DNA from: Mycobacteriales bacterium
GTDB taxonomy: Bacteria; Actinomycetota; Actinomycetes; DATLTS01
Assembly: GCA_035533475.1 (NCBI GenBank)
Contig: DATLTS010000044.1
Location: 1-39,833 of the forward strand
DNA length: 39,833 nt
Reading direction: 5' to 3'
A program made the translations under genes and the position numbers. Each line of letters starts with the position of its first letter. Within the stretch, counting starts at the first letter, position 1. The notes under the pieces are model-generated. The model saw only the letters and a program-made list of their open reading frames with translations, was not told where the DNA came from and made no database searches. Shown piece by piece: positions 407 through 22,364 of this stretch.

Positions 407-477
407 ACTTCACCAAAACTTCACCGGCCAACGCCAGGACGAGAGGGGCGACCCGGCGGTGAAGTAGGCGGTGAACA
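407..477. promoter_or_regulatory. Element-wide operator/iteron locus A (two GGTGAAGT pairs)
   Basis: Positions 407-425 hold ACTTCACC-AAA-ACTTCACC (repeat period 11 bp), which reads GGTGAAGT toward the leftward operon at 354. Positions 458-477 hold GGTGAAGT-AGGC-GGTGAACA (period 12 bp), which faces right. The same two arrangements recur at three other promoter regions in this window. The facing-right pair ends 22 nt before an ATG at 500 that opens only a 16-codon frame, so a divergent gene may once have stood here. Regulator identity is unknown. Confidence 0.6.
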
Positions 478-499
478 CGGAGCAAGCGCGCAACTTGCC

Positions 500-550
500 A
501 TGGCGGATCAGTCCGATGCCCGAGGTCGCTCAAGAGCACGGCTTCGGTGA
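500..550 (+). pseudogene. Possible remnant of a divergent gene start (16 codons)
   Basis: An ATG at 500 in the context GCCATGGCG opens a 16-codon frame (MADQSDARGRS...) that ends in TGA at 548-550. It lies 22 nt after the 12-bp-period operator pair. Two full genes elsewhere in the window (14,028 and 17,329) begin in a GCCATG context 20 nt after the same kind of pair. By that analogy this may be the surviving 5' end of a lost gene. The peptide itself is unremarkable, so the call rests on the spacing alone. Confidence 0.2.
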
Positions 551-911
551 GCGGCTCGGTCTGGGAGAGCAGAGCGCAGGCGGACGCAACGTGGGCTCCA
601 TCCGACCGATCAACGCACACACCGGCGCTCAGGTCGACGAACAGAGCTGGCAGTGATGCAGCATTCCGAAGGAACAGCCACCACGCGGGGAACGGCCTCC
701 GGATCGCCGCCTCTGTGCCGGTCGTGGCCTGCTACGCGGGCGCGGTCGGAGAGCGCCGATCACCCAGTTCGGCGGCGTGCCGTGGCCACCGCGGAGACGT
801 CGAGAGGATCCGCGCTCGCATGCTGGAGCAAGCACCTCGGGCCGCCCCGAAGGGGGATCCGTTTCCGGTGATCATCAGCTCGGCCGGGGGGCTCTCTGCC
901 AGAGTTGGGTC
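551..911. other. Non-coding or eroded stretch, nothing recognised
   Basis: Several overlapping open frames cross this stretch on both strands, but they are arginine/serine/proline-rich out-of-frame readings with no recognisable family. No tRNA, repeat or clear promoter was found. It may be debris of the gene whose start is suggested at 500. Confidence 0.4.
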
Positions 912-1340: not shown

Positions 1341-1432
1341 CGCCGCGTCGTACGAGGATCCGTAACCGCAGCTGCCGCCGTTGTCGTGGCTTGTCTCGGG
1401 CTGGCGAGGGGGTGCGAGGAGTGCTGTGGGCT

Positions 1433-3075: not shown

Positions 3076-5970
3076 TCAGCCGGCTTGGCGGGCGGCGCAC
3101 CGCTGGGCGAGGGTGTGGAGCCGGTCGAGTTCGCGGTCGGTGTCGGGATGCACCCGGTCAGCCAGATCGGCTTCGTCTTCGATGACGGTGTGAAGCTGTT
3201 TGGCGTAGATCTGCACCATGCCGGGTCGGCCGGCTTCGGCGGCGGCGGTTGCAGCCAGCAGGTACAGCGATTCCTCGTACGGGTTGACCTTGATGCCGGC
3301 GGCGGCGGCTGTTTCGGCGGCCGGGTAGTCGCCGTGGGCGAGGTCGGTTTCGGCGAGGTCACGGGCCAGGTCGGCGGCGGCGGAGCAGATTTCGGAGACG
3401 TGGTTTTCGGCGTAGATCCATTCGCAGCGGCGCCCCAGCCCGTCGAAGGGGCGGCCGCGCAGCAGGGCCAGCGCGGCCCGCTTTTGGCTGGGGTCACCGG
3501 CGGCCAACGTTTGGAAGCGTTGCCAGTCGCTGCCGATCGTCGGGTCGAGCCGGTGAACGGGGCCTTTGCTGATGGCGGCGTCGAGCAGCGCCCGGGCTTC
3601 GGCGAGTCGCTGGCTGACCACTTGGAGGTGGTAGGGCTTGTCCGGCCACAGCGCGGTGGACAGTTTTTCGGAGTCGACGCCGGAGCGGTGTAGGGCGAGG
3701 TAGACGATGAGTTCGAGCACCTTGAGCCGCCGTGGTGCGGGCGCACCGAGCAGCTCGACGGGGCCGAGGATGCAGACTTCGATGCCGGTCGCGGATTCGG
3801 CGGCTGGTGCCTGGTCACGGGCCTGTTGGTAGGTCGGGTCGTCGGCCGGCACGTCCGGCGGGGTCAGCTCGATCACCCGGGCCTGGACTGCCTGCCCGCG
3901 GGTGCCGCTGGTCGCCGCCGGGGTCGGCTCGCTTGGGTGCGGCGCGGGGACCGCGGGGTCGGCGAGGGGGACCCGGACCGCGGCCAGTGTGTCGGCGAGG
4001 GTCGCGAGTTCACCCGGCTCGGCCCGGACGGGGGTCAGCTCCCCGAGCCCGGGGACCCTGAGCAGTCCGCTGGCCTCGTCGAGCTGGCAGGCTTCGGCGT
4101 CGGGGTGCGCACCGAGCAGCACCGCGAGCAGGGGGCTGGCCGGGTCGCGGCCGGCCACGGCCAACTCGTCCGGCAGGGCGTCGGCGGAGATGCCGGCGAG
4201 CAGCAGCAGCGGGGTGGTGGCGTCGCCGGCGGCGCGGGCCGCGGCCACGGTGGGGGTGTCCGAGTCGGCGAGTTCGGCGCGGACCCGGTCGGCGTAACGG
4301 ACGAGCTGGGTGAGGTTGTCGGGGTCGGGGTCGACGGTGTCGAGCCGGTCGATCCCAGGCAGCTGCGGCAGCAGGCCGTGGGCGGTGTGCACGTGGGCCA
4401 GCGCGGCCCACGGAGCCCCGGTGAGTCCGAGAGCGATGCCGGCCGCGATCGGCGCGGTCTGCTCGATGGGGCCGGTCAGCGCGAGCAGGCCGACGGCTTC
4501 CAGGTTGAGGAAGACGTCGGTGTTGTCGAGTCGGCCGATCGGGGCGAGTGCGGGCGCGGGATCCGGGTCGGCCTCGATGGCGTAGGTGAACGGCCCGGCC
4601 TCGGCCGGTAACCGCCACCGGCCGGGCGCCGGTTCGGTGAACGGCGCTGGTGGCGGGACAGCCGGGTCGGTGAACAGGATGTCGATGGCGCCGTCCGGTT
4701 GGGCGAGCACCGCCCGGACGGTGGTTCCGTGGGGGGCTTGGGCGGCGGCGAGTCGCACCGCCTGGCGGACCCGGTCAGCTACCGGCTCGAGCTGGTCGGC
4801 GGCCCGGCGGATCGCGGCCGCCGCTGGTGGCTGGGGGCGGGGCCGGCGGTCGCGCCGGCGATGGTGCTGGGCGCTGACCGCGGCCCGGCGCAGGGTGGCG
4901 GCGGCCGCGGCCAATCCGAGTCCGAGACCGACCCCGAGGCCGACGCCGGCCGGGGTGATCGGGGCTGCCGGCTCAACTGCCCGGCCCGGTGGCGTCGAAC
5001 GGGGGTGCCCGTCGGTCGGGGACAGCACCGGCGCCTCGCCGCTGACCGACGGTTCTCGTGTGGGGGCGGGGGGGACGGATCGGGGTGCGCTGTGGTCGGG
5101 GGCGACTGGTCGCGGTTGGCCCTGGCGAGGGATTACCGGCGGGACGTCAGCGTCGGCGGGCAGTCTGGTCGCGTCGGCGGGCAGCAGCAGCACCCAGGCG
5201 GGGCGGATCAGGTTGGCCCGGGTCAGTCGCCCGCCGTCGGGTTGGAGCCGGCCTTCGTTCAACTGGTAGATCTCGCGCCAGCGCTGCCCGTCGCCGAGAT
5301 GACGTTCGGCGATGTCCCACAGGTTGTCGTGCCACCGGCCGTCCGGCGGGGCCACCACGTACACCCGCAGGTCCGCCGACTCAGGCAGCAATGCCGACCG
5401 TGAAACGCTGGCCTGCCGGCCCGGGTCGGCGGTCGGCGGGACCAGGCATTCGGCCGGACTGGTCGGGCGCGGTGGCTGCTCGGGACGGACGGCGGCCAGC
5501 GCCGTGGTGTACGCGGCGGGCGCGGCGGCCCGGGTGAGCACCACCGCAGAAACGGCGTGGCCGGTCACGGTCAGGGTTGGGCCGGCGCCGAGGGCGATCA
5601 GCACGCTGACCACCAGCTGGTGCGCGAGTCGCTGGCTGGCCCCGCCGAGGGGAATCCGCCGGGCGGGTCGATCGGACAGTTCGGCCCGCACCTCTGCCGC
5701 CACGCACACCAACAGGTGCGCCCAGGCCAGCCAACCCAGGATCGTGACGAACTTCAGCACGGTGCCGGCGGCCAGCGGCGCGGTCAGCCCGTGCCCCAGC
5801 CCGGCCAGCGTCGGCCAGCTGTGCGGGCCCGGCCAGCCGACCAGCAGGATCAGGGCAACCGGCGGACCGGCGAGCAGCACGAGCAGCGCGAGCGCGGCGC
5901 CCAGCCCGGTCGCCTGCCGGGAGATCGGCCGGGCGCGCGCCGTCGAGGCGGGGGCGGGGCGGCGGGTCAT
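3076..5970 (-). CDS. LysM and BTAD-domain membrane protein, last gene of the pilus operon
   Basis: A 964-residue protein. Residues about 20-48, 60-95 and 120-150 form hydrophobic segments. A LysM-type module follows (about 202-264: VYVVAPPDGRWHDNLWDIAERHLGD..., with W-x-x-I-Y and a closing WVLLLP). Next come a proline-rich linker and a further hydrophobic glycine-rich stretch. The C-terminal 220 residues are a winged-helix plus bacterial transcriptional activation (BTAD) repeat domain, with IEVCILGPVELLG and VLELIVYLALHRSGVDSEKLSTALWPD. BTAD domains are known from SARP regulators; LysM binds peptidoglycan. A wall-sensing signalling protein is inferred. The ATG at 5970 overlaps the preceding stop (ATGA); the open frame extends further upstream only through out-of-frame readings of the TadG-like gene. 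Confidence 0.75.
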   Translation of the reverse strand: MTRRPAPASTARARPISRQATGLGAALALLVLLAGPPVALILLVGWPGPHSWPTLAGLGHGLTAPLAAGTVLKFVTILGWLAWAHLLVCVAAEVRAELSDRPARRIPLGGASQRLAHQLVVSVLIALGAGPTLTVTGHAVSAVVLTRAAAPAAYTTALAAVRPEQPPRPTSPAECLVPPTADPGRQASVSRSALLPESADLRVYVVAPPDGRWHDNLWDIAERHLGDGQRWREIYQLNEGRLQPDGGRLTRANLIRPAWVLLLPADATRLPADADVPPVIPRQGQPRPVAPDHSAPRSVPPAPTREPSVSGEAPVLSPTDGHPRSTPPGRAVEPAAPITPAGVGLGVGLGLGLAAAAATLRRAAVSAQHHRRRDRRPRPQPPAAAAIRRAADQLEPVADRVRQAVRLAAAQAPHGTTVRAVLAQPDGAIDILFTDPAVPPPAPFTEPAPGRWRLPAEAGPFTYAIEADPDPAPALAPIGRLDNTDVFLNLEAVGLLALTGPIEQTAPIAAGIALGLTGAPWAALAHVHTAHGLLPQLPGIDRLDTVDPDPDNLTQLVRYADRVRAELADSDTPTVAAARAAGDATTPLLLLAGISADALPDELAVAGRDPASPLLAVLLGAHPDAEACQLDEASGLLRVPGLGELTPVRAEPGELATLADTLAAVRVPLADPAVPAPHPSEPTPAATSGTRGQAVQARVIELTPPDVPADDPTYQQARDQAPAAESATGIEVCILGPVELLGAPAPRRLKVLELIVYLALHRSGVDSEKLSTALWPDKPYHLQVVSQRLAEARALLDAAISKGPVHRLDPTIGSDWQRFQTLAAGDPSQKRAALALLRGRPFDGLGRRCEWIYAENHVSEICSAAADLARDLAETDLAHGDYPAAETAAAAGIKVNPYEESLYLLAATAAAEAGRPGMVQIYAKQLHTVIEDEADLADRVHPDTDRELDRLHTLAQRCAARQAG

Positions 5971-6419
5971 GGGCCTGTCCCGGTGAGCACCCCACGCTCC
6001 GGGTGGGCGGTGGCCGCCCCTCGGGTGACGAAGGTGTCGTATCCGATCAAACCCAGCAGCACGGTCGCGGTGTGGGTGGTGACGGTCACTGTGACCCCGT
6101 CCCCGGTGACCGTCGCCTGGCAGCCGTCGGCGGGTTCGGCAGCGGCCACGAAAGCGCAGGCGGCCACCCGTGCCGCCGGGGCGTCGATCCGGTCGATGCC
6201 GGTGGACCGGTACGCGGACAAGTCGAGCTGGTCGGCGCCGGCCCGGGCGGCCTGCCCGGCGAGGTCGGCGGCGTGCTGACGGGCGGTGATCGCCCGGCCG
6301 CCGTCGATGACCAGCCCGGCGAGGGCGAACAGGCCCAGCGCCAACCCGACGGTGAGGACCGCGACCATGCCGTCGTCGCCGGCACACCGCCACCGCCGCC
6401 TGTCGCATTGGGCTGTCAT
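5967..6419 (-). CDS. TadG-like pilus assembly protein
   Basis: A 150-residue protein with one N-terminal transmembrane helix (about residues 15-38: GMVAVLTVGLALGLFALAGLVIDGG) that ends in the motif VIDGGRAITARQHAADLAGQAAR, typical of TadG/TadE-like minor pilus proteins. A secreted beta-rich tail with two cysteines (CAF and DGCQ) probably forms a disulphide. It overlaps the upstream TadE gene by 4 bp (6416-6419) and the LysM-BTAD gene by 4 bp. In Tad systems such proteins act as minor pilins or assembly adaptors at the outer face of the membrane; the exact role is not visible. Confidence 0.75.
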   Translation of the reverse strand: MTAQCDRRRWRCAGDDGMVAVLTVGLALGLFALAGLVIDGGRAITARQHAADLAGQAARAGADQLDLSAYRSTGIDRIDAPAARVAACAFVAAAEPADGCQATVTGDGVTVTVTTHTATVLLGLIGYDTFVTRGAATAHPERGVLTGTGP

Positions 6420-6835
6420 GGCAGCCCCCGGTAGATCTCGATGGGTGCAGCCATGGTCGCGGTCAACGTCTTGTGCCCGGGCAGCCCGGTTCCGGTCAGC
6501 CCCGACAGATCTGCGGTGCAGGCCACGCTGACCCGGACCAACCCGCCGGGACGGAACAAGGTGGTGTCCACGGACACGGCCAGCTGGGTGCAGTTCATCT
6601 GCTGACCGGTCAGATCGGCGGTGGCCGCGGTCCGGGCGGCGGCCACCGCGGCGGCCGGGGAGTCGGTCAGGCTGGCCGCCCGGGCGGCGTCGCTGGCCGC
6701 GCCTTGCACCAGAGCGTCGGCGCCGGCGATCCGGCCGGCCCCGACGACGAACAGCAATACCAGCATGAGCACTGGGGCGAGCAGCACGAACTCGACGGCC
6801 ACCGACCCGCCGTCCGCAGCTGCCCGCCGGTTCAC
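6416..6835 (-). CDS. TadE-family pseudopilin-like protein (second copy)
   Basis: A 139-residue protein with the hallmark TadE N-terminus: a short basic leader, then GGSVAVEFVLLAPVLMLVLLFVVGAGRI (about residues 9-36). The glutamate in VEF is the conserved position within the hydrophobic helix. The mature part holds paired cysteines (MNCTQ and VACTAD). The start is GTG at 6835, overlapping the preceding stop by 4 bp. TadE proteins are minor pseudopilins needed for Tad/Flp pilus biogenesis. The tandem TadE arrangement is common in actinobacterial tad clusters. Confidence 0.85.
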   Translation of the reverse strand: MNRRAAADGGSVAVEFVLLAPVLMLVLLFVVGAGRIAGADALVQGAASDAARAASLTDSPAAAVAAARTAATADLTGQQMNCTQLAVSVDTTLFRPGGLVRVSVACTADLSGLTGTGLPGHKTLTATMAAPIEIYRGLP

Positions 6836-7302
6836 GACACACCACCGGGAGGGCTAGCCCCGGCGGGCGCCGAACCCGCGGTGGTGCCGGGGACATCGGG
6901 GTGGAACTGCTCGATCGGCCCGGTGGCCACCGCCCGGATGGTCAACGCCAGCCCGGGGATGATGCTGACTGCCCGGCCGGTGACGATCACGGTGGCGGTG
7001 GTCGTGGTGAGGCTGACCGCGAAGCTTGGGGCGGTGACCAGGTCGGGGCCGAGGGAGTGCACGTAGCCGAGCCCGGCGGTGCTCGCCTGGCTGTCCACGA
7101 GGCTGAGGCTGGTGGCAGAGCGGACGGTCCGGTCGGCCTGCTCGACGGCGGCGAGCAGCACCTGACGGGCGTAGTAGTACAGGGCGGCTTGCACCACCAG
7201 GAAGACGACCAGCATCAGCACCGGGGCGAGCAGCACCAGCTCCACCGGGGAGCTTCCCCGCTCCCCGGTCCGCCAGCGGCGAGGGGGCGTGCGCACGGTC
7301 AT
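6832..7302 (-). CDS. TadE-family pseudopilin-like protein (first copy)
   Basis: A 156-residue protein. After a basic leader (MTVRTPPRRWRTGERGS) comes SPVELVLLAPVLMLVVFLVVQAALYYYARQV, the classic TadE helix with its conserved glutamate at about residue 21. The tail ends in a serine/proline/glycine-rich segment (PGTTAGSAPAGASPPGG) that may be an extracellular linker. It starts at ATG 7302 and overlaps the next TadE gene by GTGA. The role is the same as for its neighbour. The two copies differ in their distal halves, so they are likely distinct minor pilins. Confidence 0.85.
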   Translation of the reverse strand: MTVRTPPRRWRTGERGSSPVELVLLAPVLMLVVFLVVQAALYYYARQVLLAAVEQADRTVRSATSLSLVDSQASTAGLGYVHSLGPDLVTAPSFAVSLTTTTATVIVTGRAVSIIPGLALTIRAVATGPIEQFHPDVPGTTAGSAPAGASPPGGVS

Positions 7303-7327
7303 GGTCGGTGTCGTCGTGACGTGTGTG

Positions 7328-7582
7328 CTACGGGGTGTTGAGGTTGATCTGGTGGGCTTTCTGGGTGACCTTCGCGTAGATCAGGGTGCCGACACCGATC
7401 GCCATCGCCGCGCCGATGGTCACGATGATCACCCACTGGATGGTGTCGCCACGGTCGGTTCCGCCGGTACGGACCCGGTTCCGCACCGTGGTGAACAGCG
7501 CGGTGAGCACGGCCAGTTCGGGGGCCAGCACCGCCAGCAGCGGTGCGGCGAGGCGGGTTGGGCTGGTGGGTCGGTAGGTCAT
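7328..7582 (-). CDS. Small membrane protein in the major-pilin position of the tad operon
   Basis: An 84-residue protein with a hydrophilic N-terminal half and one C-terminal transmembrane helix (TIQWVIIVTIGAAMAIGVGTLIYAKV). The ATG at 7582 is preceded by GCGGAGG at good spacing, which favours it over a GTG two codons upstream. Size, single helix and position between tadC and the tadE genes suggest a Flp-type pilin or pilin substitute. The canonical Flp cleavage motif (G followed by X4-E-Y) is not present, however: the helix starts GDTIQW. It may be an unusual pilin or another small assembly protein. Confidence 0.6.
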   Translation of the reverse strand: MTYRPTSPTRLAAPLLAVLAPELAVLTALFTTVRNRVRTGGTDRGDTIQWVIIVTIGAAMAIGVGTLIYAKVTQKAHQINLNTP

Positions 7583-7605
7583 GGGCACCTCCGCGGTTCG
7601 ATGGG

Positions 7606-8514
7606 TCAGAAGCTGAGCAGCTTCGCGACGGCCGGGTAGCCGAGGAACAGGAGGAACCCGAGGGCCAGAACAACCTGGGCGACGAGCATCGCCTGGGTGG
7701 CCTCGTTGGCCCGGCCGTGCAGGTCGGACAGTTCGCGGTCCCGCAGCGAGGCGGCCTGCGCCCGCAGGCTGGCCTCGGCCTGCGCGCCGCCGCCTTCGAC
7801 CAACGCGAGCCGGGCGGCGGTGTCGACCAGCTCGGGCAGGGCCAGCTCGTCGCCGAGCCGGCCGAGCGCGGCGGGTGGGCTGAGTCCGTCGGTGCGGGCG
7901 TCGGAGAGCGCGCCGCGGATCCGGGCGAACGCGTCGCCCCGGCCGAGCCGGGCGGCGTCGGTGAGCGCCTCGGCGAGACCAGCGCCGCTGGCCATCCGCA
8001 TCGCGACCAGGTCGAGGTAGGCGCCGACCGCGGTCCGCAGCCCGCGGCGGGCCTGACCGGCCCGGGTGCGGACCTGAACGTCCGGCAGATAGAAGCCGGT
8101 GAGGGCGCAGCCCAGGCCCAGCCAGGCCGGGACCAGCAGCGGCACCGTGATACCAGCCAGCCGGGCCACCCCGGTGAGCAGAACCGGGGTGAGCAGGCCG
8201 GCGAGGGTCCAGCCGAGCTTCGCGGCGGCGAACTCCGCCGGGTCCAGGTCGAGCACCCGCAGGTCCGCACCCAGGCCGGGGCGCAGCCAGCCGCGGGCCG
8301 CCAGCGCCGCCGCGACCCGCCCGCCGACCACCGCGGTGACCCAGCGGCTGCTACCGGCCACGGGGAAGGTCGGGCGGATCGCGGGACGCCAGGCGGCGGC
8401 CGCGTCGAGTCGGGTGAGGGTGGTCAGCGGGTCAGGCCGGGCGGGCCACAGGCCGACAGCGAGCAGCAACAGGCCGCATCCCAGACCGGCGCCGGCGAGG
8501 ATAGCGGCGGTCAC
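7606..8514 (-). CDS. tadC: TadC-like type II/IV secretion F-domain inner-membrane protein
   Basis: A 302-residue protein with an N-terminal membrane helix, a pair of central helices (about residues 105-150, LAGLLTPVLLTGVARLAGITVPLLVPAWLGLG) and a C-terminal helix (VLALGFLLFLGYPAVAKLL). The cytoplasmic F domain (about 165-265) carries DLVAMRMASGAGLAEAL and GRLGDELALPELVDTAARL, typical of T2SSF/TadC. It starts at GTG 8514, overlapping tadB by GTGA. TadB and TadC form the inner-membrane platform driven by the CpaF/TadA ATPase. I found no missing key region. Confidence 0.88.
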   Translation of the reverse strand: MTAAILAGAGLGCGLLLLAVGLWPARPDPLTTLTRLDAAAAWRPAIRPTFPVAGSSRWVTAVVGGRVAAALAARGWLRPGLGADLRVLDLDPAEFAAAKLGWTLAGLLTPVLLTGVARLAGITVPLLVPAWLGLGCALTGFYLPDVQVRTRAGQARRGLRTAVGAYLDLVAMRMASGAGLAEALTDAARLGRGDAFARIRGALSDARTDGLSPPAALGRLGDELALPELVDTAARLALVEGGGAQAEASLRAQAASLRDRELSDLHGRANEATQAMLVAQVVLALGFLLFLGYPAVAKLLSF

Positions 8515-9350
8515 CGCGGGGTCCCCCGGGCCGACGGGCCGAGCAGCCGGACGACCGGTTGCGGCGCGGACAGCCGGCGCAACCAGCCGAAGCCGAAGGT
8601 GAAAACGGCGACGATCACGGCGAGCATCAGCTGACCGGCCGGGGCGCGGTAGGGGGCCACGTAGCCGGGGTTGAGCAGCGCCAGACCGAGGCCGACGGTA
8701 ATGGTGACCGCCATCACGATGAGCACCCCGCGGCGGGTGCCGCGGCGGTCGGCCTCGACCTTGCGGCGGACCTCGAGCTGGGCACGGGCTGAGCGGGCCA
8801 GCGCGGAGAGCACCGCGACGAGCTGCCGCCCCTGGGCGTGCGCGTTGAGGATGAGCGCGGCCACGATCAGGTCGGCGTCCTGGTCGTCCAGCTCGTCGGC
8901 CAGCGTCCCCAGCGCCTCGGGCAGCGGGACCCGTTCGCCGACCCGCTCGGCGAGGGCGGCAAGTTGTGGGCGGATCGGCGCGGCCGCCGCGGGCACGCTG
9001 GCCAGCAGCGCGTCCGGTAACGCGACCCCGGCCGCGGTCAGGTCGCGCAGCGATTCGGCCCACCCGGCCAACGCCTCCAGCCGGGCGGTGGCCGCTTTCG
9101 CGGCGGCGACCCCGCCGAACAGCCGCGGCCAGAAGTAGACCAGCCCCCCCAGTGCCGCGGCGACCGCGACCCAGCGGGTGGCCACCAGCACCAGGACGGC
9201 TACCACGGCCGCGCCGGCCGCCCGTTCGGTGTCGCGTCGTGACCAGCCGTGCCGCGGCCCGGCCGCGGGGCGTGAGCCGAGGCCGATCATCAGCAGCCCG
9301 GCACCGACGCCGGCGCCGCAGCCGACGACCAGGATCAACCGGGTGGTCAT
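8511..9350 (-). CDS. tadB: TadB-like type II/IV secretion F-domain inner-membrane protein
   Basis: A 279-residue protein: MTTRLILVVGCGAGVGAGLLMIGLG helix, a second membrane region (AAVVAVLVLVATRWVAVAAALGGLVYF), the F domain (about residues 95-205, with LEALAGWAESLRDLTAAGVALPDALLAS and the ELDDQDADLIVAALILNA motif) and C-terminal helices (VLIVMAVTITVGLGLALL and LMLAVIVAVFTFGFGW). The ATG at 9350 overlaps the cpaF stop (ATGA) and is followed at once by the first helix, so longer upstream readings are not used. It is the partner of TadC in the assembly platform. Confidence 0.88.
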   Translation of the reverse strand: MTTRLILVVGCGAGVGAGLLMIGLGSRPAAGPRHGWSRRDTERAAGAAVVAVLVLVATRWVAVAAALGGLVYFWPRLFGGVAAAKAATARLEALAGWAESLRDLTAAGVALPDALLASVPAAAAPIRPQLAALAERVGERVPLPEALGTLADELDDQDADLIVAALILNAHAQGRQLVAVLSALARSARAQLEVRRKVEADRRGTRRGVLIVMAVTITVGLGLALLNPGYVAPYRAPAGQLMLAVIVAVFTFGFGWLRRLSAPQPVVRLLGPSARGTPR

Positions 9351-10660
9351 CGGCGAACCAGTTGGGTGTGGGGTGAGTAGCCGTGCGCGGCGAGCCGGGC
9401 GGCCCGGGCTGGGGTGATCGGCGCGGCCGGCTCGGCGAGCAACTCCCCGGGGCTGGTGGCGAACACTTCGGAGGACACCACCTGGGTGCCGTCCCAGCCG
9501 ACCACCTCGCGGACCGACTCGACGAAGCGGTGCACCCGCCCGTCCGGCAAGCTCACCCGGCGCATGTGCACCACGAAGTCGATGGCCCGGGCGATCAGCC
9601 GGCCGGTGGCCTCCACCGGGACGTGCGCCGGGCCGCGCAGCGCGTAGTCGGCCAACCGGTCGAACACACTGAGGGCGTCCCGGGAGTGGCACGACGACAT
9701 CGAGCTCGACGCGCCCTGACTCATCGCGTCGAGCATCGCGGAAACCTCGCCGCCGATGATCTCCCCGACCAGGGTGCGGTCCGGGTTCATTCGCCGGGAA
9801 CGTTCAACCAGTTCAGCCAGGCTCATCCCGCCGACGCCTTCGGCGTTGGGCAGCCGCTCCTCCAACGCCCGGACGTCGCGGTGCAGATCCGGGAAGTGTT
9901 CGATCCCAAGTTCCCGGAAATGCTCGATCGTGATGATCGACTCGTGGTAGGGGATGGCGTTCGCCAACGCCCGCAGCTGGGTGGTCTTACCGGCGAACGG
10001 CTCCCCGGAGATGATCAGGTTGCAGGCACCGTGGGCCGCGGCGGTGAAGAAGTCCAGGAGTTCGGTGGAGAACGAGCCTCGTTCGTGCAACTCGTCCAGG
10101 GTGATCCGCTGCAGCCGGTACAACCGGATGGACACGGACGGGCGTTCGCAGACGCTCATCAGGGCGTGCATCCGGGAGCCGTCCGGCAGCCGGGTCTCCA
10201 ACCAGGGGTGCACCGGGTCGAACGGGCGGCTGGACAGCCCGCCGTAGGCGCCGATGGTGCGCACCCACTCGATCAGCTCGGCGTCCGAGTCGGCCACCGC
10301 TGGACCGGCCACGAGCTGACCGTCGGTCTTGTGCAGCCACACCCGGTCGGCCCCGGTGATCTCGATCGCGATGTTCGTCCCGTCGTTGATCAATGGTTGC
10401 AACCGGCCGAGCCCGAAACGGGCGGCATAGACGGCCTCGGCCAGCTCACGGTCGTCCTCCGGCGGGGGCAGCGGCCCGCCGCGGGCGGCGAGTTCGCGGC
10501 GACGGAAGTCCTCGATCGCGGCGGCGATCAGGCTGCGCCCCAGCTCCCGCTCGTCGTCGTCACTCAGCAGCCGCTGGCCGGTCTCAGCGCGGGCCCGCCG
10601 GGCCGCCCGCAGCCGCTCGGCGACCTCCGCGCCGAGTTCGCGGACCAGGGTGTAGTCCAC
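9347..10660 (-). CDS. cpaF: CpaF/TadA pilus assembly ATPase
   Basis: A 437-residue secretion ATPase of normal family length. An N-terminal domain ending about residue 200 (LQPLINDGTNIAIEITGADRVWL; RPFDPVHPWLETRLPDGSRMHA) is followed by Walker A GEPFAGKT at 219-226, then an Asp/Glu-box region (ITIEHFRELGIEH), the Walker B-like DRTLVGEIIGGEV near 295-310, and the histidine box SSMSSCHSRDA. It starts at GTG 10660, 3 bp after the TadZ-like stop. It hydrolyses ATP at the cytoplasmic face to drive pilin assembly. In many ICEs a CpaF-like protein also serves type IV secretion, so a role in mating-pair formation cannot be excluded. Confidence 0.92.
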   Translation of the reverse strand: MDYTLVRELGAEVAERLRAARRARAETGQRLLSDDDERELGRSLIAAAIEDFRRRELAARGGPLPPPEDDRELAEAVYAARFGLGRLQPLINDGTNIAIEITGADRVWLHKTDGQLVAGPAVADSDAELIEWVRTIGAYGGLSSRPFDPVHPWLETRLPDGSRMHALMSVCERPSVSIRLYRLQRITLDELHERGSFSTELLDFFTAAAHGACNLIISGEPFAGKTTQLRALANAIPYHESIITIEHFRELGIEHFPDLHRDVRALEERLPNAEGVGGMSLAELVERSRRMNPDRTLVGEIIGGEVSAMLDAMSQGASSSMSSCHSRDALSVFDRLADYALRGPAHVPVEATGRLIARAIDFVVHMRRVSLPDGRVHRFVESVREVVGWDGTQVVSSEVFATSPGELLAEPAAPITPARAARLAAHGYSPHTQLVRR

Positions 10661-10663
10661 AGC

Positions 10664-11482: not shown

Positions 11483-12177
11483 GACCCGGACCCCGCCAGC
11501 AGCGCGAGGCTGACCGTTCCGGCGGCGGCGGCGCTGGCCACGCTCACCGCCTGGCCGGGGCCGACAGCCAGATCGACCAGGGTGGTGTCACTGGTCGGGT
11601 CCGGCTGCACTGACAGCACCAGCGCCGCGGGCACCAGCACCCCGCCCGGGCTGGCCGACCCGCCGCCGGTGTTGGTGGCGACCTGTAGCACAGCGACCCG
11701 GTCACCGGCGGCCAGCTCGCCGCCGGGCAGGCTGCCCGGCTTCAGCGCGACCCCGACCACCTCCTGATCGCCGGTCGGGGTGCCGGCGGCGGTCAGCATG
11801 CCGGTCTCCAGCAGGGTGCCGGCCGGCAGGTCCGCGGTCAGGGTGCGCCCGACCAGCCGCGCCGCCGCCGACGCCGGGATCGCGTTCAGCCCGGACCCGG
11901 ACAGGTGGGCCACCCGCAGGTCGGCGGCCGTCATCGGCTGGCCGATGCTGACCGGGTGGGCCAGCGCCAACACGGCGAGCTGCCGGCTCGCCCCGGTGTA
12001 CAGGACGCCGGCGGTCACCGCGCACACGGTGATCAGCACCGCACCGGCGGCCGCGGTCAGCGGCCGGCGGGGACGGCGCAGCCGGGGCAACCGCTCGGCG
12101 CGCGCTCCCCCAGGTGAGCCAGGAGTGGAGCGGCGAGCCTCGGTCAGCACGCCCTGCCCGTTCGCCCGATCAGCCAT
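11479..12177 (-). CDS. cpaB: CpaB/RcpC-like SAF-domain pilus protein
   Basis: A 232-residue protein with a basic N-terminus, one membrane anchor (about residues 40-62: PLTAAAGAVLITVCAVTAGVLYTG) and a SAF domain (about 68-130: VLALAHPVSIGQPMTAADLRV ... LVGRTLTADLPAGTLLETGML), followed by a CpaB C-terminal part (VGVALKPGSLPGGELAAGDRVAVL). CpaB/RcpC proteins sit in the envelope and support the Tad secretion channel. It starts at ATG 12177, 20 bp after the preceding gene. In Gram-positive bacteria there is no outer-membrane secretin, so a wall-side structural role is likely (inference). Confidence 0.82.
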   Translation of the reverse strand: MADRANGQGVLTEARRSTPGSPGGARAERLPRLRRPRRPLTAAAGAVLITVCAVTAGVLYTGASRQLAVLALAHPVSIGQPMTAADLRVAHLSGSGLNAIPASAAARLVGRTLTADLPAGTLLETGMLTAAGTPTGDQEVVGVALKPGSLPGGELAAGDRVAVLQVATNTGGGSASPGGVLVPAALVLSVQPDPTSDTTLVDLAVGPGQAVSVASAAAAGTVSLALLAGSGS

Positions 12178-12197
12178 GCGCGGACCTCCCGGAGTTC

Positions 12198-13139
12198 TCA
12201 GCTGGAGCTCGACGAGACGACGGTTTCCCGCTCGGACACTTGCAGCGGGAACCGGTAGGAGCGGGTGATCGCCGGCAGTACCCCGGTCAGCCCGCCGGAA
12301 CCGACCCAGCTGACCTGCCAGCTCACCGTCACCGTCACCGTGAAGTAACGCTCGTTCGGGTCCGGGCCGCGCTGCGGCTGCGCCGCGCTCGACCGTGTGT
12401 AGGTGTGGGTGCACCGCGACTGTTGCCCCGACGCCGGCACGTTCCGGTTGTACGGAGTTCCCGCACCGTCGCAGACCAGCGCCCGCGTCCCGTCACCCGC
12501 GTCCCACGTCGACGACATCGGCCGCGCCGTCACCACCGCCCACAGCCCGCCGACCCCGGTCCGCTGACGAAGCGTCCGCCACTGCGCGGGCGAGACCCAC
12601 CACCACGTCGCCAGCCCCGTCAACGCATCCGTCGGATTGTGATTCGCCGCCGGCATCGGCAACGGCAGCAAGCTCTCCGCCCGCTGCGCCAGCACCGCCG
12701 GGGTCACCCGGGCCGGCGCGACCGGCACCGGCAGCAAAACCGACGCCGACGTGCCGAAGCGACCACCACCGCCGATGAAGATCCCCTGGTAGACCTTGCC
12801 GTCCTGGCAGTACAAGGTGAAGAACGCGCCGGAGTAGCCCGGCGACAGCAAGCTGCGGGTGTCGGCAGCATCGAACACGAAGACACACGACACCCCGCCC
12901 GGGCCCTTCATGTACACCACCGGCACAACAGACCCAGACGAGCGCCTGGTCGACGCCGGGGCACTTGTCGTGGTGATGGTCGTCTGGATGTCTCCTCGTG
13001 TCGGGTCACCGGTCACGACGATCGGTTTCGGGTGCCCACCTTCACCCTGGGAACCAGCGAATACGGGTGTGGCAGCAACGCCCGTCCAGGCAACCAACAT
13101 CCCCGCCGCAAGGGCCGTGATCGTGGTCAGGCGGCGCAC
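12198..13139 (-). CDS. Secreted protein of unknown function in the tad operon
   Basis: A 313-residue protein with a signal peptide (VRRLTTITALAAGMLVAWTGVAATPVFAG, cleavage likely after PVFAG or nearby). The mature part contains GGVSCVFVFDAADT, four or more cysteines, a tryptophan-rich GLATWWWVSPAQWRTLR and a C-terminal half with WDAGDGTRALVCDGAGTPYN. I do not recognise a family. The GTG at 13139, two bases after the preceding stop, is chosen because the signal peptide begins there. Its operon position between the lipoprotein and cpaB genes suggests an extracytoplasmic part of the pilus or mating apparatus. Confidence 0.6.
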   Translation of the reverse strand: MRRLTTITALAAGMLVAWTGVAATPVFAGSQGEGGHPKPIVVTGDPTRGDIQTTITTTSAPASTRRSSGSVVPVVYMKGPGGVSCVFVFDAADTRSLLSPGYSGAFFTLYCQDGKVYQGIFIGGGGRFGTSASVLLPVPVAPARVTPAVLAQRAESLLPLPMPAANHNPTDALTGLATWWWVSPAQWRTLRQRTGVGGLWAVVTARPMSSTWDAGDGTRALVCDGAGTPYNRNVPASGQQSRCTHTYTRSSAAQPQRGPDPNERYFTVTVTVSWQVSWVGSGGLTGVLPAITRSYRFPLQVSERETVVSSSSS

Positions 13140-13708: not shown

Positions 13709-13764
13709 CCGGGTGCCACCGCGTTCCTCCGCCGGTAGACGGACCGGGCGGCTGATGTTGCTAT

Positions 13765-13794
13765 GGAGTACTGCATCCGATCCGGACATGTCAA
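13765..13794 (-). promoter_or_regulatory. Predicted sigma-70-type promoter of the tad operon
   Basis: Read on the minus strand, TTGACA (13,794-13,789) is a perfect -35 box. After 18 bp comes TACTCC (13,770-13,765), a weak -10. The transcript would begin about 50 nt upstream of the lipoprotein ATG. The 11-bp-period operator pair at 13,864-13,882 lies about 70 bp upstream of the -35, a position that suits an activator better than a blocking repressor (inference). Confidence 0.5.
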
Positions 13795-13863
13795 GATTCG
13801 GGCCCTTTCGTTCACAGCGTCGTTCCCTCCTCCCAGGTGCGTGTGGTCCAACCCTGCTCGGTG

Positions 13864-13922
13864 ACTTCACCAAAACTTCACCGCGAGGCGGGCGGCCGGC
13901 GGTGGTGAAGTTTTGGTGAAGT
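13864..13922. promoter_or_regulatory. Operator/iteron locus B, inverted pair of 11-bp-period repeats
   Basis: ACTTCACC-AAA-ACTTCACC at 13,864-13,882 and GGTGAAGT-TTT-GGTGAAGT at 13,904-13,922 are exact reverse complements, separated by 21 bp. They face the leftward tad operon and the rightward gene at 14,028 respectively. The same 19-bp unit is found at 407-425 and 17,391-17,409, and with one mismatch at 22,346-22,364. The long perfect inverted arrangement suits cooperative binding by a dimeric regulator that controls both directions. Confidence 0.65.
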
Positions 13923-13987
13923 CCGCCGATCTTGGCGCCCCCGGCGCGGCGGCGCGCCCGCCGGCGACCCGCCGCGACGGTCCTCGC

Positions 13988-14007
13988 GGTGAAGTCGGCG
14001 GTGAAGT
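13988..14007 (+). promoter_or_regulatory. Operator/iteron locus B, 12-bp-period repeat pair
   Basis: GGTGAAGT-CGGC-GGTGAAGT, repeat period 12 bp, ends 20 nt before the ATG at 14,028. The same unit lies 20 nt before the ATG at 17,329 and 19 nt before a GTG at 22,282. It could be read as codons (VKSAVKS), but a matched copy at 458 contains an in-frame stop, so conservation appears to act on the DNA or RNA. Confidence 0.6.
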
Positions 14008-14027
14008 CGGTGCGGACCGTGGCGGCC

Positions 14028-14585
14028 ATGGAGCGTGGATGGAAGGTGCAGGCGGCCGTCGACGCCGTCGGGGAAGCGAGCTGGCGGGTGCGCGCCCGGG
14101 CGACCGGTACCGAGCCGGGTCGGGCGCCGCACCTGGTGGTCCGGGCCGGGCCGGTGCGGGTGTACTGCCTGGACGGGCGGGCGGTGGCCGACCTGGCCGC
14201 GGCCTGGGCGCAGGCGTACGCGACGACCTGCCACCTGCTGCCGGTGCGGCTGCCGCGCTACCGCACCGCGGAGATCACCGCCGGGCATGCCTCGACGGTC
14301 GTGGAGACGGTGGTCGAGGGTCGCCAGCCGTGGGACGTCACGCCCCCCGACCCGGCCCACCCCTATGCGGCGGTGAGCACCGGTTGGCTGGTCGTGCGGG
14401 TGCACGATGTGGCGGCGTTGACGGTGCAGGTGCGGGCCTGGTCGGAGGCCACCGCGCTCGGCCGGCAGGTGCTGCGCAGCCGGCCGGCGTCGTTCAACCG
14501 GCTGCTGGCCATCGCCCGGGACGTGGGCTTCGTCGAGCGGGAGCGCCACGCCGCCCTCGAGCGGCCGGCCGGCCGTGACCGGTAG
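14028..14585 (+). CDS. Conserved element protein of unknown function
   Basis: A 185-residue protein (MERGWKVQAAVDAVGEASWRV...). It has a mixed alpha/beta composition, one YCLDGRAVADLAAAW segment, a single central HAS motif and no membrane helix or signal. I do not recognise a domain. It starts in a GCCATG context 20 nt after an operator pair and is the first of two rightward genes divergent from the tad operon. Upstream in-frame codons (VKSAVKSVRTVAAM) exist but coincide with the operator repeat, so the ATG is preferred. It is a candidate element-specific regulator or transfer-associated protein on position only. Confidence 0.55.
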   Translation: MERGWKVQAAVDAVGEASWRVRARATGTEPGRAPHLVVRAGPVRVYCLDGRAVADLAAAWAQAYATTCHLLPVRLPRYRTAEITAGHASTVVETVVEGRQPWDVTPPDPAHPYAAVSTGWLVVRVHDVAALTVQVRAWSEATALGRQVLRSRPASFNRLLAIARDVGFVERERHAALERPAGRDR

Positions 14586-16234: not shown

Positions 16235-17329
16235 TCAGCGGCCGAGGCTGCGCCCGGCCGGGACGACGGGATGCGCGGCCGGCTCCAGGCGGCCGGTATC
16301 GGCGATCTGCGCCACGGTCGGCGGCAGCAGATGGGCCAGCCGGGTCGGACCCGGCGGGTGGCTGCGCTGCCAGCGGGCCGGCAGCTGGGTGAGCGGGTCG
16401 GTGTGCGCGAGCGCGCCGGGCAACAACTCGTCGGGATCCCCGCCCCGACATCCGGTCTGCAGGACCCGCAACCCGGCCGCCCTGGTCGTGCGGGCCAGCG
16501 CGGCTTCGACGACAAGCCGGCCGTAGGCGTCGAGGGAGGCCGGCACCGGCACCGACTCGATGAGTCGGAACAACGCGATCCCGTCGACCCCGGGAAGATC
16601 AGCCCGGCCGAGGGTGGCCAGCACTGCCGCCGGGTCGGCCGGCAATCTCTGGGCGGTCAGCTCACCGATGGCCCGGTAGGCGGCGGCACACGTCGGGTCG
16701 GCGAAGTCGCCGACCGACAGCCAGCCCGCGACCTCGCCGAGTCGCTCCGGGGCAAGGAGCAGCGTGCCCACAGTGACCCGTTCGACGAGCCGCTCGCCGC
16801 CGTCACCGGCACGCTCGGAACCGTTCGGTCGGCGCAGCGGCAGCCGTCCCTCGGCCGGCAGGCTCACCGACGTGCCCGCGAAACTACGGCGAGCCTGCCG
16901 CCAACGGCGCAGCCCGCCCTCGATCCGGGCCCGCTCACCTGCGGCGAGTTCGAGCACATCCTCGGCCGGGCCGGGGCGGACACCGGCCAGCCGCTGCCCG
17001 GCAGCCAGCACCTGACGGCGGATGCTGCCGGCGAGCACGTGCGCGGCGTAGTAGCCGGCCGACGCCGGACTGGGCACCTCGGCCGCGAGCTGAGCCACCT
17101 CCCGGGCGGCGCCCAGATCTCCGCCTCGCGCCAGGGCGACGCCCAACGTGACCTCATCCACCGCACGGGCCGCCTCGCGTAGCCGGGCAGTGGCCGCGAA
17201 AATCCGTCGGCACACCGGATCAGCGAAGTCCAACCGGTCTAGCCACGCGAGGGAGCTCGCCGTCGCGCCAGGAGCGACGATCATCGAACCCACCACGATC
17301 CGCTCGGCCCGCCCAAGATCCGTATCCAT
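16235..17329 (-). CDS. Tandem DnaB N-terminal-like domain protein without helicase domain
   Basis: A 364-residue protein with two copies of a DnaB-N-like helical domain. Copy one, about residues 7-110, runs LGRAERIVVGSMIVAPGA, then LDFADPVCRRIFAATARL, then VDEVTLGVAL. Copy two, about 185-280, runs RVTVGTLLLAPERLGEV, then LSVGDFADPTCAAAYRAI, then LPADPAAVLATL. DnaB-N domains mediate helicase hexamer and primase contacts. No RecA-like ATPase core or Walker motif is present. The protein may act as a helicase-interaction or replication-regulating factor for the element (inference). The ATG at 17,329 follows an operator pair by 20 nt. Upstream in-frame codons exist but fall on the operator. Confidence 0.65.
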   Translation of the reverse strand: MDTDLGRAERIVVGSMIVAPGATASSLAWLDRLDFADPVCRRIFAATARLREAARAVDEVTLGVALARGGDLGAAREVAQLAAEVPSPASAGYYAAHVLAGSIRRQVLAAGQRLAGVRPGPAEDVLELAAGERARIEGGLRRWRQARRSFAGTSVSLPAEGRLPLRRPNGSERAGDGGERLVERVTVGTLLLAPERLGEVAGWLSVGDFADPTCAAAYRAIGELTAQRLPADPAAVLATLGRADLPGVDGIALFRLIESVPVPASLDAYGRLVVEAALARTTRAAGLRVLQTGCRGGDPDELLPGALAHTDPLTQLPARWQRSHPPGPTRLAHLLPPTVAQIADTGRLEPAAHPVVPAGRSLGR

Positions 17330-17349: not shown

Positions 17350-17409
17350 ACTTCACCGCCGGCTTCACCAACTGCGGCCACGCGGCCTGCGGTGAAGTTT
17401 TGGTGAAGT
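17350..17409. promoter_or_regulatory. Operator/iteron locus C
   Basis: ACTTCACC-GCCG-GCTTCACC at 17,350-17,369 (12-bp period, one mismatch) faces the leftward gene and ends 20 nt from its ATG. GGTGAAGT-TTT-GGTGAAGT at 17,391-17,409 (11-bp period, perfect) faces right, where no divergent gene now stands before the 3' end of the ComF-like gene at 17,541. The right-hand target may have been lost when the DprA/ComF pair was placed here. Confidence 0.62.
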
Positions 17410-19195: not shown

Positions 19196-19292
19196 CCTAG
19201 GCCCCTCGTCGTGGAAGCATTGGCAGGCGCGCTCATTACTGATCGTGCCCCTTGGCTACGACGTTAGGCCAGGCCGCTGCCTGGGCCGGGGG

Positions 19293-22190
19293 CTACCGGC
19301 TCAGTCCGCGGCTCGGGTCGAGCCTGGCCGCGGCAAGGGTGAGACCTGGGCCGCTGGCCTCGCTGCTGGCCATGCGTTGCTGGCGTGAGCTGAGCAGCCG
19401 CTCGGTCAGCGCCGCCTGCAGGAGCTCGGCCTGTTCGTCGCTGCGGATTCTGCTCAGCCGGGGATGGTCGACGTGGTGTTCGGGGTCTGGGTCGACGAGA
19501 CCGAGGCTGGTGTAGAGGTGGTTCGCCCGCCGCCCCCGGCTCATCCCGACGTAGCCGGCTTCCCGGCACAGCGCCGTGCTGCCGTACACCAGCGCAGTCT
19601 CCACCGTGATCCCCTGGGCGCGGTGGCTGGTCAGCGCGTAGCCGTGGATCAGATGGTCCGCGCACCACTGCCCGTCGAGGGTGTGCGTGCGCCCGGCGGC
19701 GGTGAGCTCGATCCGCCCGGCCCGAGGATGCAGGGCGGTGATCTGACCGCGGGTGCCGTTGAGCAGCCCGCACCGGTAGTCGTTGGCGGTCACGACGACC
19801 TCCTCGCCCACCCGCAGACCCAGTTGGCCGAGCTCGGCGGTGACAACGATCTCGGCATCCCCGAGCAGGTCATGCTCGATCAACGCGCCCCGGATCGCGG
19901 CGTTCAGGGTGTGGGTGTCGACCCGCCGGCTGGTGATCGCGACGATCCGGCCGGGGCCGGCGGTCCGCCGGTCGGCGAGGTAGTCGGCCACCAGCTGCTC
20001 CTGCGCGGTCCGGGTGCTGGGGGTGGCGTGCACCCGGCCGTGGGCCAGGTAGGCGTCCACCGCGGTGGCCACGTCGCCGTCGCGGAGCTTGGTCAACGCG
20101 TCGATTTCCCAGCGCTGCTGCTGGCGCTGGTTGCCGCCGAGACGCTCAGCTGCCGGCCCGCGGGACAGGACCGCGAACAGCCCGCCGGCGTCGATCTCGG
20201 GGAGCTGACATGGGTCGCCGACGAGCACCAGCTTGCCATCGGCGGCGGTGGTCAGGCGCATCAGCTCGAGCAGCTGGCGGGTGCCGACCATGCCGGCCTC
20301 GTCGACCACCAGAACCGCTCCGGCCGGCAGGCCGACCGGCGAGTGGGTGTCCGGGTCGACGCGGTTGACCTCCATCAGCAGCCGGGCGAGTGAGGAGGCG
20401 CAGATCCCGGCGCCGTCGTGGAGGGTTTGCGCGGCAATCGCCGCCAGCGCCGCCCCGAGCACCGGGTGGCCGGCCTGCTGCCACGCGGTCCGGGCGGCCG
20501 CCAGCGCCCGGGTCTTCCCGGAACCGGCCGGGCCCACGAGTACCTGCACCCCGGCGCCCGAGCTGGTCAGTGATCGCACCACCTGGGCCTGCTCGCCGGA
20601 CAACCCGGCCCCCGTGATCGCGGCGTCCACGGTCGCCGCCGGCACCATGCCGACAGCGGCCTTGCGCCGGGAGCGGGCCAACGCGAGCGCGTCACGTTCG
20701 GCGCGCAGCATGTCCACCGTGCTGTAGCGGCGGACGTCCGCCGGAAGTTCCGGTGCCAACGCGACGACCTGCGGGTCGCGGATCAGTTCGGTGGCCAGTG
20801 TCCGCAGCCGCTCCACGGTGACGTTCGCCCCGGCGGGTAGTTCGTCGCAGAGCCCGCGCAGCAGCCCGCGGCGGTCGAAACTGGCCCGCCGGAAGGTCAA
20901 TCCATGCGGGGCGAACAGCCGGTCGGCCAAGACGTCGGCGGCCGGGACGTCCGGTGGGGTGATCCGGTGCAGCACCTCGGTCAGCTCGGCCGGGTCGAAC
21001 CCGGCGTCGACGGACCGGCGGGTCCACTCCTCGCGCAGACTGGTCTCGCCGCGGTGCCGCTTAGCCGGGCGGGTCACCAGGGTCGCCACGTGTGCAGCCT
21101 TCGGGTCGTCCCGGCCGACCCGATCGAGTTCGGCTTCGATCTCGGCCCGTCGCCGGGAGAACAGCCGGCGCAGGCCGATCGGCACCCCACGGATGTCGGC
21201 GATACCGTGGCGCACCGGCGACCAGCCCACCCCGAGGTTGGCGGTGAGCTGGCCGCGTAGCACCGCCTGGTAGAGGTGGCCGGCGGTGAACGCCTCGGCG
21301 TATACCGCCCGGGTGTCCAGGGCGGAAAACCGGCCGTCGACACCGCGGACCAGGTTGACCAGCACGACGTGGGTGTGCAGCTGCAGATCCTCGGCCCGGC
21401 TGGCCCGGTGTTCGAACGCCACCCCGATCAGCCCGTCGGTGCCGATCCGCAGCGCGGATGCTCCGTCGTGGTGGCCGCGCAGTGCGGTCGCGCACCGGCG
21501 CTCGAGGTAGCCGACGGCCTCGGCGACCGCCGTCTCGTGCGCGGACCGAACCTGCTCGGCCACCGCCGACCCGGACAGCCCGTACAGCACGCTGACGCTC
21601 TTCGGTGGGGAGAAGCACACATCCAGACCGGCCCGGCGGACGTCCACCCGCTCCTCCGCGGCCGCCAGCGCGGTCGCGAACCGATCGACCCCGTTCGGCT
21701 GCCGGTACAACCCGGTCGCGTCCACCCCGACGGCCGCCGCCAGCACGGCGATCCGGGTCGCCGGTGCCGCCGCCCGAGGTAGCCTCGCCCGGCTGCGGTC
21801 CCGGTCCACTGCGGCGGCGAACCGGGCGAACTCCCCGGCCCGTTCCGGATCCGCGATCAGACGCTCGACGCTGACCTGCTTCTCCGCGGCCTTGCGGGTG
21901 ATCGCTTCCACCAGCGGGCGCAGCGGCAGCCGTGCCCGGTCCGGCAGCCGACGCACCGGCGCGACCAGCGGCCTGCCATCGGTGTCCCGCCCCGCCAGCA
22001 ACGCGCGCAACCGCTCCTCCCCCGCCTCATCGAGCTCCCCGACCAGCCCCAGCCCGCGGGCTCCCGCACCGATCCAGACACCGCGCCGTTCCCCTTCCCC
22101 GGTGTAGTAATCGGCCGGGCAGCCCGCCTGCCGGCGCAGGTAGTAGTCCGCCGCCGACCGTCCAGCCCCGAGCCGCCCGATCGAGATCAT
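19293..22190 (-). CDS. MobF-family relaxase with C-terminal RecD-like helicase (TraA/TrwC type)
   Basis: A 965-residue protein. MISIGRLGAGRSAADYYL is the usual MobF start, with catalytic tyrosine candidates at 16-17. The three-histidine metal site is seen in FEHRASRAEDLQLHTHVVL (His at about 261, 272 and 274). The C-terminal SF1 helicase has Walker A GPAGSGKT near 554-561, VLVVDEAGMVGT near 627, and a late LTSHRAQGITVETALVYG motif. It nicks the transfer origin, stays bound to the 5' end and unwinds the DNA. The ATG at 22,190 is chosen over an in-frame GTG 20 codons upstream because the family begins there and a short leader frame overlaps it as ATGA. Confidence 0.92.
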   Translation of the reverse strand: MISIGRLGAGRSAADYYLRRQAGCPADYYTGEGERRGVWIGAGARGLGLVGELDEAGEERLRALLAGRDTDGRPLVAPVRRLPDRARLPLRPLVEAITRKAAEKQVSVERLIADPERAGEFARFAAAVDRDRSRARLPRAAAPATRIAVLAAAVGVDATGLYRQPNGVDRFATALAAAEERVDVRRAGLDVCFSPPKSVSVLYGLSGSAVAEQVRSAHETAVAEAVGYLERRCATALRGHHDGASALRIGTDGLIGVAFEHRASRAEDLQLHTHVVLVNLVRGVDGRFSALDTRAVYAEAFTAGHLYQAVLRGQLTANLGVGWSPVRHGIADIRGVPIGLRRLFSRRRAEIEAELDRVGRDDPKAAHVATLVTRPAKRHRGETSLREEWTRRSVDAGFDPAELTEVLHRITPPDVPAADVLADRLFAPHGLTFRRASFDRRGLLRGLCDELPAGANVTVERLRTLATELIRDPQVVALAPELPADVRRYSTVDMLRAERDALALARSRRKAAVGMVPAATVDAAITGAGLSGEQAQVVRSLTSSGAGVQVLVGPAGSGKTRALAAARTAWQQAGHPVLGAALAAIAAQTLHDGAGICASSLARLLMEVNRVDPDTHSPVGLPAGAVLVVDEAGMVGTRQLLELMRLTTAADGKLVLVGDPCQLPEIDAGGLFAVLSRGPAAERLGGNQRQQQRWEIDALTKLRDGDVATAVDAYLAHGRVHATPSTRTAQEQLVADYLADRRTAGPGRIVAITSRRVDTHTLNAAIRGALIEHDLLGDAEIVVTAELGQLGLRVGEEVVVTANDYRCGLLNGTRGQITALHPRAGRIELTAAGRTHTLDGQWCADHLIHGYALTSHRAQGITVETALVYGSTALCREAGYVGMSRGRRANHLYTSLGLVDPDPEHHVDHPRLSRIRSDEQAELLQAALTERLLSSRQQRMASSEASGPGLTLAAARLDPSRGLSR

Positions 22191-22282
22191 CGCTGGCCGG
22201 CCGAGAAGGCTGCCGCACCCACCGGATGCCGGGGTCGGGGCTCGTTCCACCGGCGCGAAGCCGGTCCGTCCTGAGTGCGCAC
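22187..22282 (-). CDS. Possible 31-codon leader peptide coupled to the relaxase
   Basis: A GTG at 22,282, 19 nt after the operator pair, opens a 31-codon frame (VRTQDGPASRRW...). Its TGA (22,189-22,187) overlaps the relaxase ATG as ATGA. It is in a different frame from the relaxase. The start-to-operator spacing matches the full genes at 14,028 and 17,329. It may be a small protein or an upstream frame that couples relaxase translation. No homology is recognised. Confidence 0.35.
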   Translation of the reverse strand: MRTQDGPASRRWNEPRPRHPVGAAAFSAGQR

Positions 22283-22301
22283 GGGGCCAGCGTCGGCAGC
22301 G

Positions 22302-22364
22302 ACTTCACCGCCGACTTCACCGCAGCCACCAGGCACCCAGCAGCGACTTCGCCAAAACTTCACC
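22302..22364 (-). promoter_or_regulatory. Operator/iteron locus D, upstream of the relaxase
   Basis: ACTTCACC-GCCG-ACTTCACC at 22,302-22,321 (12-bp period) and ACTTCGCC-AAA-ACTTCACC at 22,346-22,364 (11-bp period, one mismatch). Unlike the other loci, both pairs point the same way, toward the leftward relaxase. Being upstream of a relaxase gene, the region is also a natural place to look for the transfer origin, but no nic site was recognised. Confidence 0.6.

Follow-up and report, generated by a model that had tools for sequence, protein, structure and literature searches.

Conjugative IncC plasmids and the co-resident, mobilizable Salmonella genomic island 1 (SGI1) share AcaCD sites upstream of transfer or excision genes (PMC4605294, PMC5058578). 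This system may be regarded as the nearest functional analogue of the repeats described here, which lie on a conjugative element of a Mycobacteriales bacterium (GenBank assembly GCA_035533475.1). The element was studied in a stretch of 39,833 nucleotides, "the window", which is the whole contig DATLTS010000044.1 (C44) of a genome of 3.27 Mb in 68 contigs, the sole member of its own family and order in our comparison set. Tandem pairs of the 8-mer GGTGAAGT (double boxes) are found here upstream of several operons and again at another element of this genome, on contig C54. The boxes are proposed to be operators of the kind shared by IncC plasmids and SGI1, with the same site at several operons of one element. 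However, AcaCD is of the FlhDC type, whereas here the host is an actinobacterium, the sites are tandem 8-mers and the regulator is a putative one.

As to the mode of binding, the nearest analogues are probably the PHO-type operators and BldC/RdfS. PHO/AfsR-type operators of Streptomyces consist of two head-to-tail units about one turn apart, and the 11-bp type of our boxes resembles CTTCACC-N4-CTTCACC (PMC4415409). The boxes described here, in contrast, are restricted to mobile elements, have a 12-bp variant and a divergent composite layout, and no co-varying OmpR-type protein was found. BldC and the HTH_17 excisionases RdfS and Xis bind direct repeats cooperatively and head to tail, and this family links excision and transcription of integrative and conjugative elements (ICEs) (PMC5859096, PMC11963761). 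BldC units are 9 bp long and AT-rich, whereas the boxes are 8-bp G-rich words spaced by 11 or 12 bp; among the genes of the window, which holds an incomplete element, none of the HTH_17 family was detected. Finally, the TraB recognition sequences and clt of Streptomyces plasmids are repeated 8-bp motifs on conjugative elements as well, but clt is a single cis locus next to the tra gene (PMC3583192), whereas the boxes stand at the 5' ends of several operons and in fixed pairing.

The word GGTGAAGT occurs 16 times in the window as compared to 0.57 expected copies, and none of 100 shuffles reaches 16. Fifteen copies are intergenic and lie in the regions 407-477, 13864-14007, 17350-17409 and 22302-22364, with intergenic DNA making up 12.7% of the window according to our gene calls (binomial p ~5e-13). 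A first-pass annotation, made from the DNA letters alone, had confined the word to these four regions, which holds for all but one copy inside a coding region (27509-27516) and leaves out a fifth locus, on C54. It had also counted nine tandem pairs with two fixed spacings, and we find the same: five pairs have a spacing of 11 bp with a TTT spacer (four exact, one with a single mismatch) and four have a spacing of 12 bp with a GC-rich spacer (two exact, one with one and one with two mismatches), both types being present in each of the four regions, again as described there. The regions are located 5' of a DUF6112 transfer gene, of the Tad operon and a small + strand gene, of a gene for a protein with DnaB N-terminal domains (DnaB-N) and of a TrwC relaxase gene, the promoters being inferred from position. 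Between the arms there is no sequence conservation, so that the boxes are not copies of a mobile repeat.

Within this genome the boxes are restricted to two elements. Since 12 bp correspond to four codons, the 12-bp pattern has a coding background and the 11-bp type is the cleaner test. C44 holds five and C54 one of the six 11-bp pairs with up to two mismatches that the genome contains, and a search that allowed up to three mismatches returned only 3-mismatch background outside these contigs, in agreement with the first-pass expectation that such pairs are not common outside such elements. The 8-mer as such is not over-represented (78 observed vs 71 expected copies in 1.32 Mb of this genome), which does not fit a reading as the FtsK-orienting polar sequence (KOPS) of the host. 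No box copy at a chromosomal gene was found in this genome, where one near-match was checked, a site with one mismatch on C26 that proved to be coding background. On C54, three boxes are clustered immediately 5' of a second TrwC gene, whose product is 51% identical to the C44 relaxase over 874 aligned residues. Downstream of it an HTH_17 protein and tyrosine recombinases are encoded, the neighbouring genes look chromosomal (acetyl-CoA synthetase-like, GH18), and the locus as a whole looks like an integrative mobilizable element (IME). Three of the tyrosine recombinase genes are consecutive, resembling a recombinase-in-trio (L084, 3687-6846), and fragments similar to one of these recombinases adjoin the relaxase locus of the window (22844-23415).

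Comparable boxes are present in other actinobacteria. Relaxase homologues were drawn from 297 genomes of the class, and in the 600 bp upstream of 11 TrwC homologues, this genome excluded, we counted 28 tandem 8-mers with 12-bp spacing vs a mean of 4.1 and a maximum of 9 in 100 shuffles. For the other spacings tested from 9 to 21 bp the counts did not leave the range of the shuffles; a spacing of 24 bp, twice 12, gave 10, which is its own shuffle maximum. The words differ, e.g. GGGGACG in the genomes G159, G097 and G085 and GTGACGGA in G001. Arrays of three or four units occur, and the inner gaps of divergent double boxes are 21, 21 and 21 bp in this genome and 19, 19, 21 and 22 bp in others, again with differing words. 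The architecture is thus conserved with other words. The first-pass annotation had suggested a scan of related elements for the word itself; what recurs in the TrwC, integrase and actinomycete integrative and conjugative elements (AICEs) of other actinobacteria is the layout. Exact pairs of GGTGAAGT in other members of the class are nearly all of the 12-bp type, isolated and mostly compatible with coding background, with one 11-bp match (G264, L026). Pairs of GGGGACG in two viral contigs lie among long open reading frames (ORFs) without box clusters and were read as background.

Based on these findings we propose, with a probability of about 0.6, that the boxes form composite operators, to which a trans-acting regulator with sequence specificity, used by several co-resident elements, binds head to tail. 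Each 8-bp unit would be contacted by one DNA-binding domain. An array would comprise two to four head-to-tail units with a period of roughly one helical turn (11 or 12 bp), and two arrays, often facing apart across about two turns (19-22 bp), would form one composite operator. Given the phased units and the facing arrays, cooperative loading of the protein as an oligomer is probable, e.g. by a winged-helix or helix-turn-helix (HTH) domain. It may act as a common switch for the operons of the C44 element (transfer, pilus, DnaB-N and relaxase), and the relaxase cluster on C54 would be controlled via the same boxes. That a protein binds the boxes, that it regulates transcription and that one protein serves both elements we infer from sequence. 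The single regulon of the first-pass annotation remains the best fit, "element-wide" being replaced by "cross-element" as the boxes recur at the TrwC element on C54.

Several observations weigh against a common regulator of this kind. The 11-bp type is found only in this genome and the spacing in other lineages is 12 bp. Some TrwC relatives lack clear boxes (G067 and G291, and weakly G042 and G032), and the composite layout is not strict, the gap at 407-477 being 32 bp and the arms at the relaxase locus both lying on one strand. No sigma70 consensus match was present in 13500-14100, the sole region scanned. The co-variation of the words with one DNA-binding protein, which the first-pass annotation had expected, was not found, and only TrwC and integrases co-varied with the boxes. 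One locus on contig C48 of the same genome (L082, 9997-10128) has a different 11-bp double repeat, TTGAACA-N4-TTGAACA, in front of a gene whose product contains a sigma-70 region 4-like domain. A single host factor for all elements fits poorly with this repeat, and module exchange could partly explain why elements share words. C48 belongs to a further conjugative element with genes for a VirB4-like protein, a coupling protein, Replic_Relax, LysM-BTAD and Tad proteins.

To our knowledge, little is understood of how transfer of MOBF-type actinobacterial ICEs and IMEs is triggered. A composite operator that can be recognised in the sequence would help to tell when these elements move and would allow IMEs to be tied to their controlling elements or hosts from sequence alone, and box DNA is a ready probe for a pulldown of the regulator. 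Should several unrelated elements of a cell indeed share an operator word, coordinated mobilisation or silencing would be directly testable.

Nine genomes with GGGGACG pairs were searched for further loci. The same word is carried by an operon for RepSA, FtsK and a serine recombinase (a pSAM2-type AICE) and a TrwC element in G097, by TrwC elements and an integrase element beside tRNA-Gly in G085, and by TrwC elements and a serine-recombinase locus in G159; in G085 and G169 boxes are located between tRNA-Gly and the integrase gene. Nearly all exact 12-bp copies in G097, G085 and G159 are within mobile-element loci, and in G001 the exact word is found solely upstream of its own TrwC gene. Thus, in the few genomes at hand the word appears to follow the genome or lineage and not the element type. 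We tentatively speculate, at clearly lower confidence than for the operators as such, that there is a "mobilome code", i.e. that unrelated elements in one cell (MOBF ICEs and IMEs, RepSA AICEs, integrase-only islands) share an operator word with one reader, encoded by the host or an element, and that the word drifts with spacing and layout remaining fixed. In two elements of G159, homologous small CxxCxGxG ORFs (DnaJ-zinc-finger-like) lie beside the boxes (L137, 8561-8863; L179, 9720-10301).

The same distribution might arise if a host-encoded regulator or silencer controlled many unrelated mobile elements and the word drifted with the host lineage, since one word is used across element types within G097, G085 and G159 and words differ between lineages. 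The deviating repeat on C48 argues against such a factor, as does the lack of copies at chromosomal genes in this genome, few genomes having been examined, and we consider a purely host-borne control unlikely. Even less probable, by a wide step, is that the boxes are arm-type sites of integrases or sites of excisionases. Some excisionase-like HTH_17/BldC proteins do bind head to tail (PMC5859096, PMC11963761), and a 10.6-kb integrative element of G169, bounded by 42-bp tRNA-Gly repeats (L181, 4892-15578), has boxes no more than ~230 bp from either end and directly 5' of its integrase gene. However, att repeats put the boxes 2-6 kb inside the elements G159_C65 and G085_C10, so that they are not simply integrase arms; moreover, the word is common to elements with tyrosine and serine integrases, and the window boxes sit at internal operons.

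Conservation upstream of TrwC in many elements would also be expected of sites on the transferred DNA, i.e. sites for a TraM/TrwA-like accessory protein of the relaxosome at the origin of transfer (oriT) or repeats read by an FtsK/TraB-type translocase. One box-bearing AICE (G097_C220) has an FtsK-type gene, and TraB of pSVH1 recognises repeated 8-bp motifs via a winged HTH (wHTH) domain (PMC3583192). Nevertheless, three of the four window loci precede the Tad, DUF6112 and DnaB-N genes and do not make up one cis locus, boxes precede integrase genes in G169 and G085_C12 with no relaxase detected in the fetched region, and no FtsK/TraB gene was found in the window, where the element is incomplete. 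The translocase alternative of the first-pass annotation is weakened, single loci may still have an oriT or translocase role, and the likeness in form to the 8-bp repeats of TraB stands; we regard transfer-DNA sites as a rather unlikely explanation. Iterons of theta replication would be clustered at one origin by a rep gene; the four window loci are dispersed, and one single locus may have an iteron or origin role. Formation of RNA-level hairpins by inverted boxes has a probability close to nil: the segments 13860-13926 and 17346-17413 fold far below shuffles (z-scores of -7.2 and -6.6), but the hairpin is weak at 403-481 (-1.9) and there is none at the relaxase locus (-0.6), where the boxes still match the word.

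Contrary to the first-pass view that no regulator is evident in the window, a SARP-like protein with LysM, wHTH and BTAD domains is encoded at the end of the Tad operon and is the clearest candidate regulator there; its homologues are annotated LysM/BTAD on actinobacterial plasmids. The boxes might bind this protein of the element itself, as an activator of the SARP or PhoP type that recognises direct repeats of 11 bp, since OmpR-type regulators bind 11-nt direct-repeat units, e.g. the PHO box (PMC4415409), to which the 11-bp box ACTTCACC-AAA-ACTTCACC is similar. However, a homologue is present in 54 of 198 genomes, and the box-bearing genomes G001, G085, G097, G159 and G169 are not among these. 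Upstream of the Tad operons in relatives that carry the BTAD gene (pKRAD01, pNOCA01, Kitasatospora, G011), nothing comparable to the double boxes is seen, and the protein was dropped as favoured binder. A spacing of 12 bp is also unusual for OmpR-type binding, and it is seen in four of the window pairs, next to five at 11 bp, and in the other lineages. Moreover, the LysM domain suggests a membrane or pilus role. Binding by the LysM-wHTH-BTAD protein is improbable.

Table 1. Double boxes and neighbouring genes in the window
Feature	Position	Strand	Remarks
11-bp double box GGTGAAGT-TTT-GGTGAAGT, exact	407..425	-	upstream of DUF6112 transfer gene
12-bp double box GGTGAAGT-AGGC-GGTGAACA, 2 mismatches	458..477	+	inner gap to 407-425, 32 bp
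11-bp double box, exact	13864..13882	-	left arm of divergent composite operator (putative) between Tad operon (-) and + strand gene
11-bp double box, exact	13904..13922	+	right arm of the composite; inner gap to 13864-13882, 21 bp
12-bp double box GGTGAAGT-CGGC-GGTGAAGT, exact	13988..14007	+	2 bp ahead of possible GTG start at 14010
12-bp double box, 1 mismatch	17350..17369	-	20 bp upstream of DnaB-N gene start (17329, -)
11-bp double box, exact	17391..17409	+	inner gap to 17350-17369, 21 bp
12-bp double box, exact	22302..22321	-	111 bp upstream of TrwC relaxase start (22190, -)
11-bp double box, one unit GGCGAAGT, 1 mismatch	22346..22364	-	upstream of TrwC relaxase; same strand as 22302-22321
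DUF6112 protein, first gene of transfer operon	76..354	-	operon runs off contig; Pfam PF19607, E 1.8e-10
LysM-wHTH-BTAD protein	3076..5970	-	end of Tad operon; BTAD E 0.028, below Pfam cut-off; wHTH and LysM by inspection
Tad pilus genes: TadE, TadE, T2SSF, TadA ATPase, RcpC/SAF	5967..12414	-	
P0005	13142..13543	-	upstream of Tad genes; homologues near Tad genes in pKRAD01 and G011
191-aa protein	14010..14585	+	directly downstream of 13988 box; no family; low-confidence model without clear HTH
DnaB N-terminal-domain protein	16235..17329	-	domain in two copies; PF00772, E 5.2e-28
TrwC/MOBF relaxase-helicase	19293..22190	-	PF08751, E 4.5e-67

The window spans the contig from end to end, and position 1 therefore interrupts the transfer operon. 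Among the contig ends examined for its remainder none overlaps position 1 or carries further genes of a type IV secretion system, and the element is thus incomplete in this assembly; contig scans of the genome with the BTAD protein and the relaxase as queries returned no loci. The two small + strand proteins by the 13988 box have no family and no plasmid relatives, and their models, one of very low confidence, are without a clear HTH. At the loci L138, L137 and L144 a stretch GGGGAAACCC...GGGGAACGGTT, similar in L138 and L137 and more diverged in L144, lies about 150 bp upstream of TrwC and separate from the boxes; it is possibly the nic region of oriT. On pKRAD01 a tandem array with a period of ~24 bp is located near a ParA gene (L090, ~6900-7250).

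The right end of the window (39833) overlaps the start of C43, in reverse orientation, by at least 55 bp. Between 25282 and 31467 the window contains strong matches to the Shango anti-phage proteins SngA, SngB and SngC (E 3e-78, 1e-173 and 7e-265), and these genes are adjoined by a Mokosh-like helicase gene (32083-35562).

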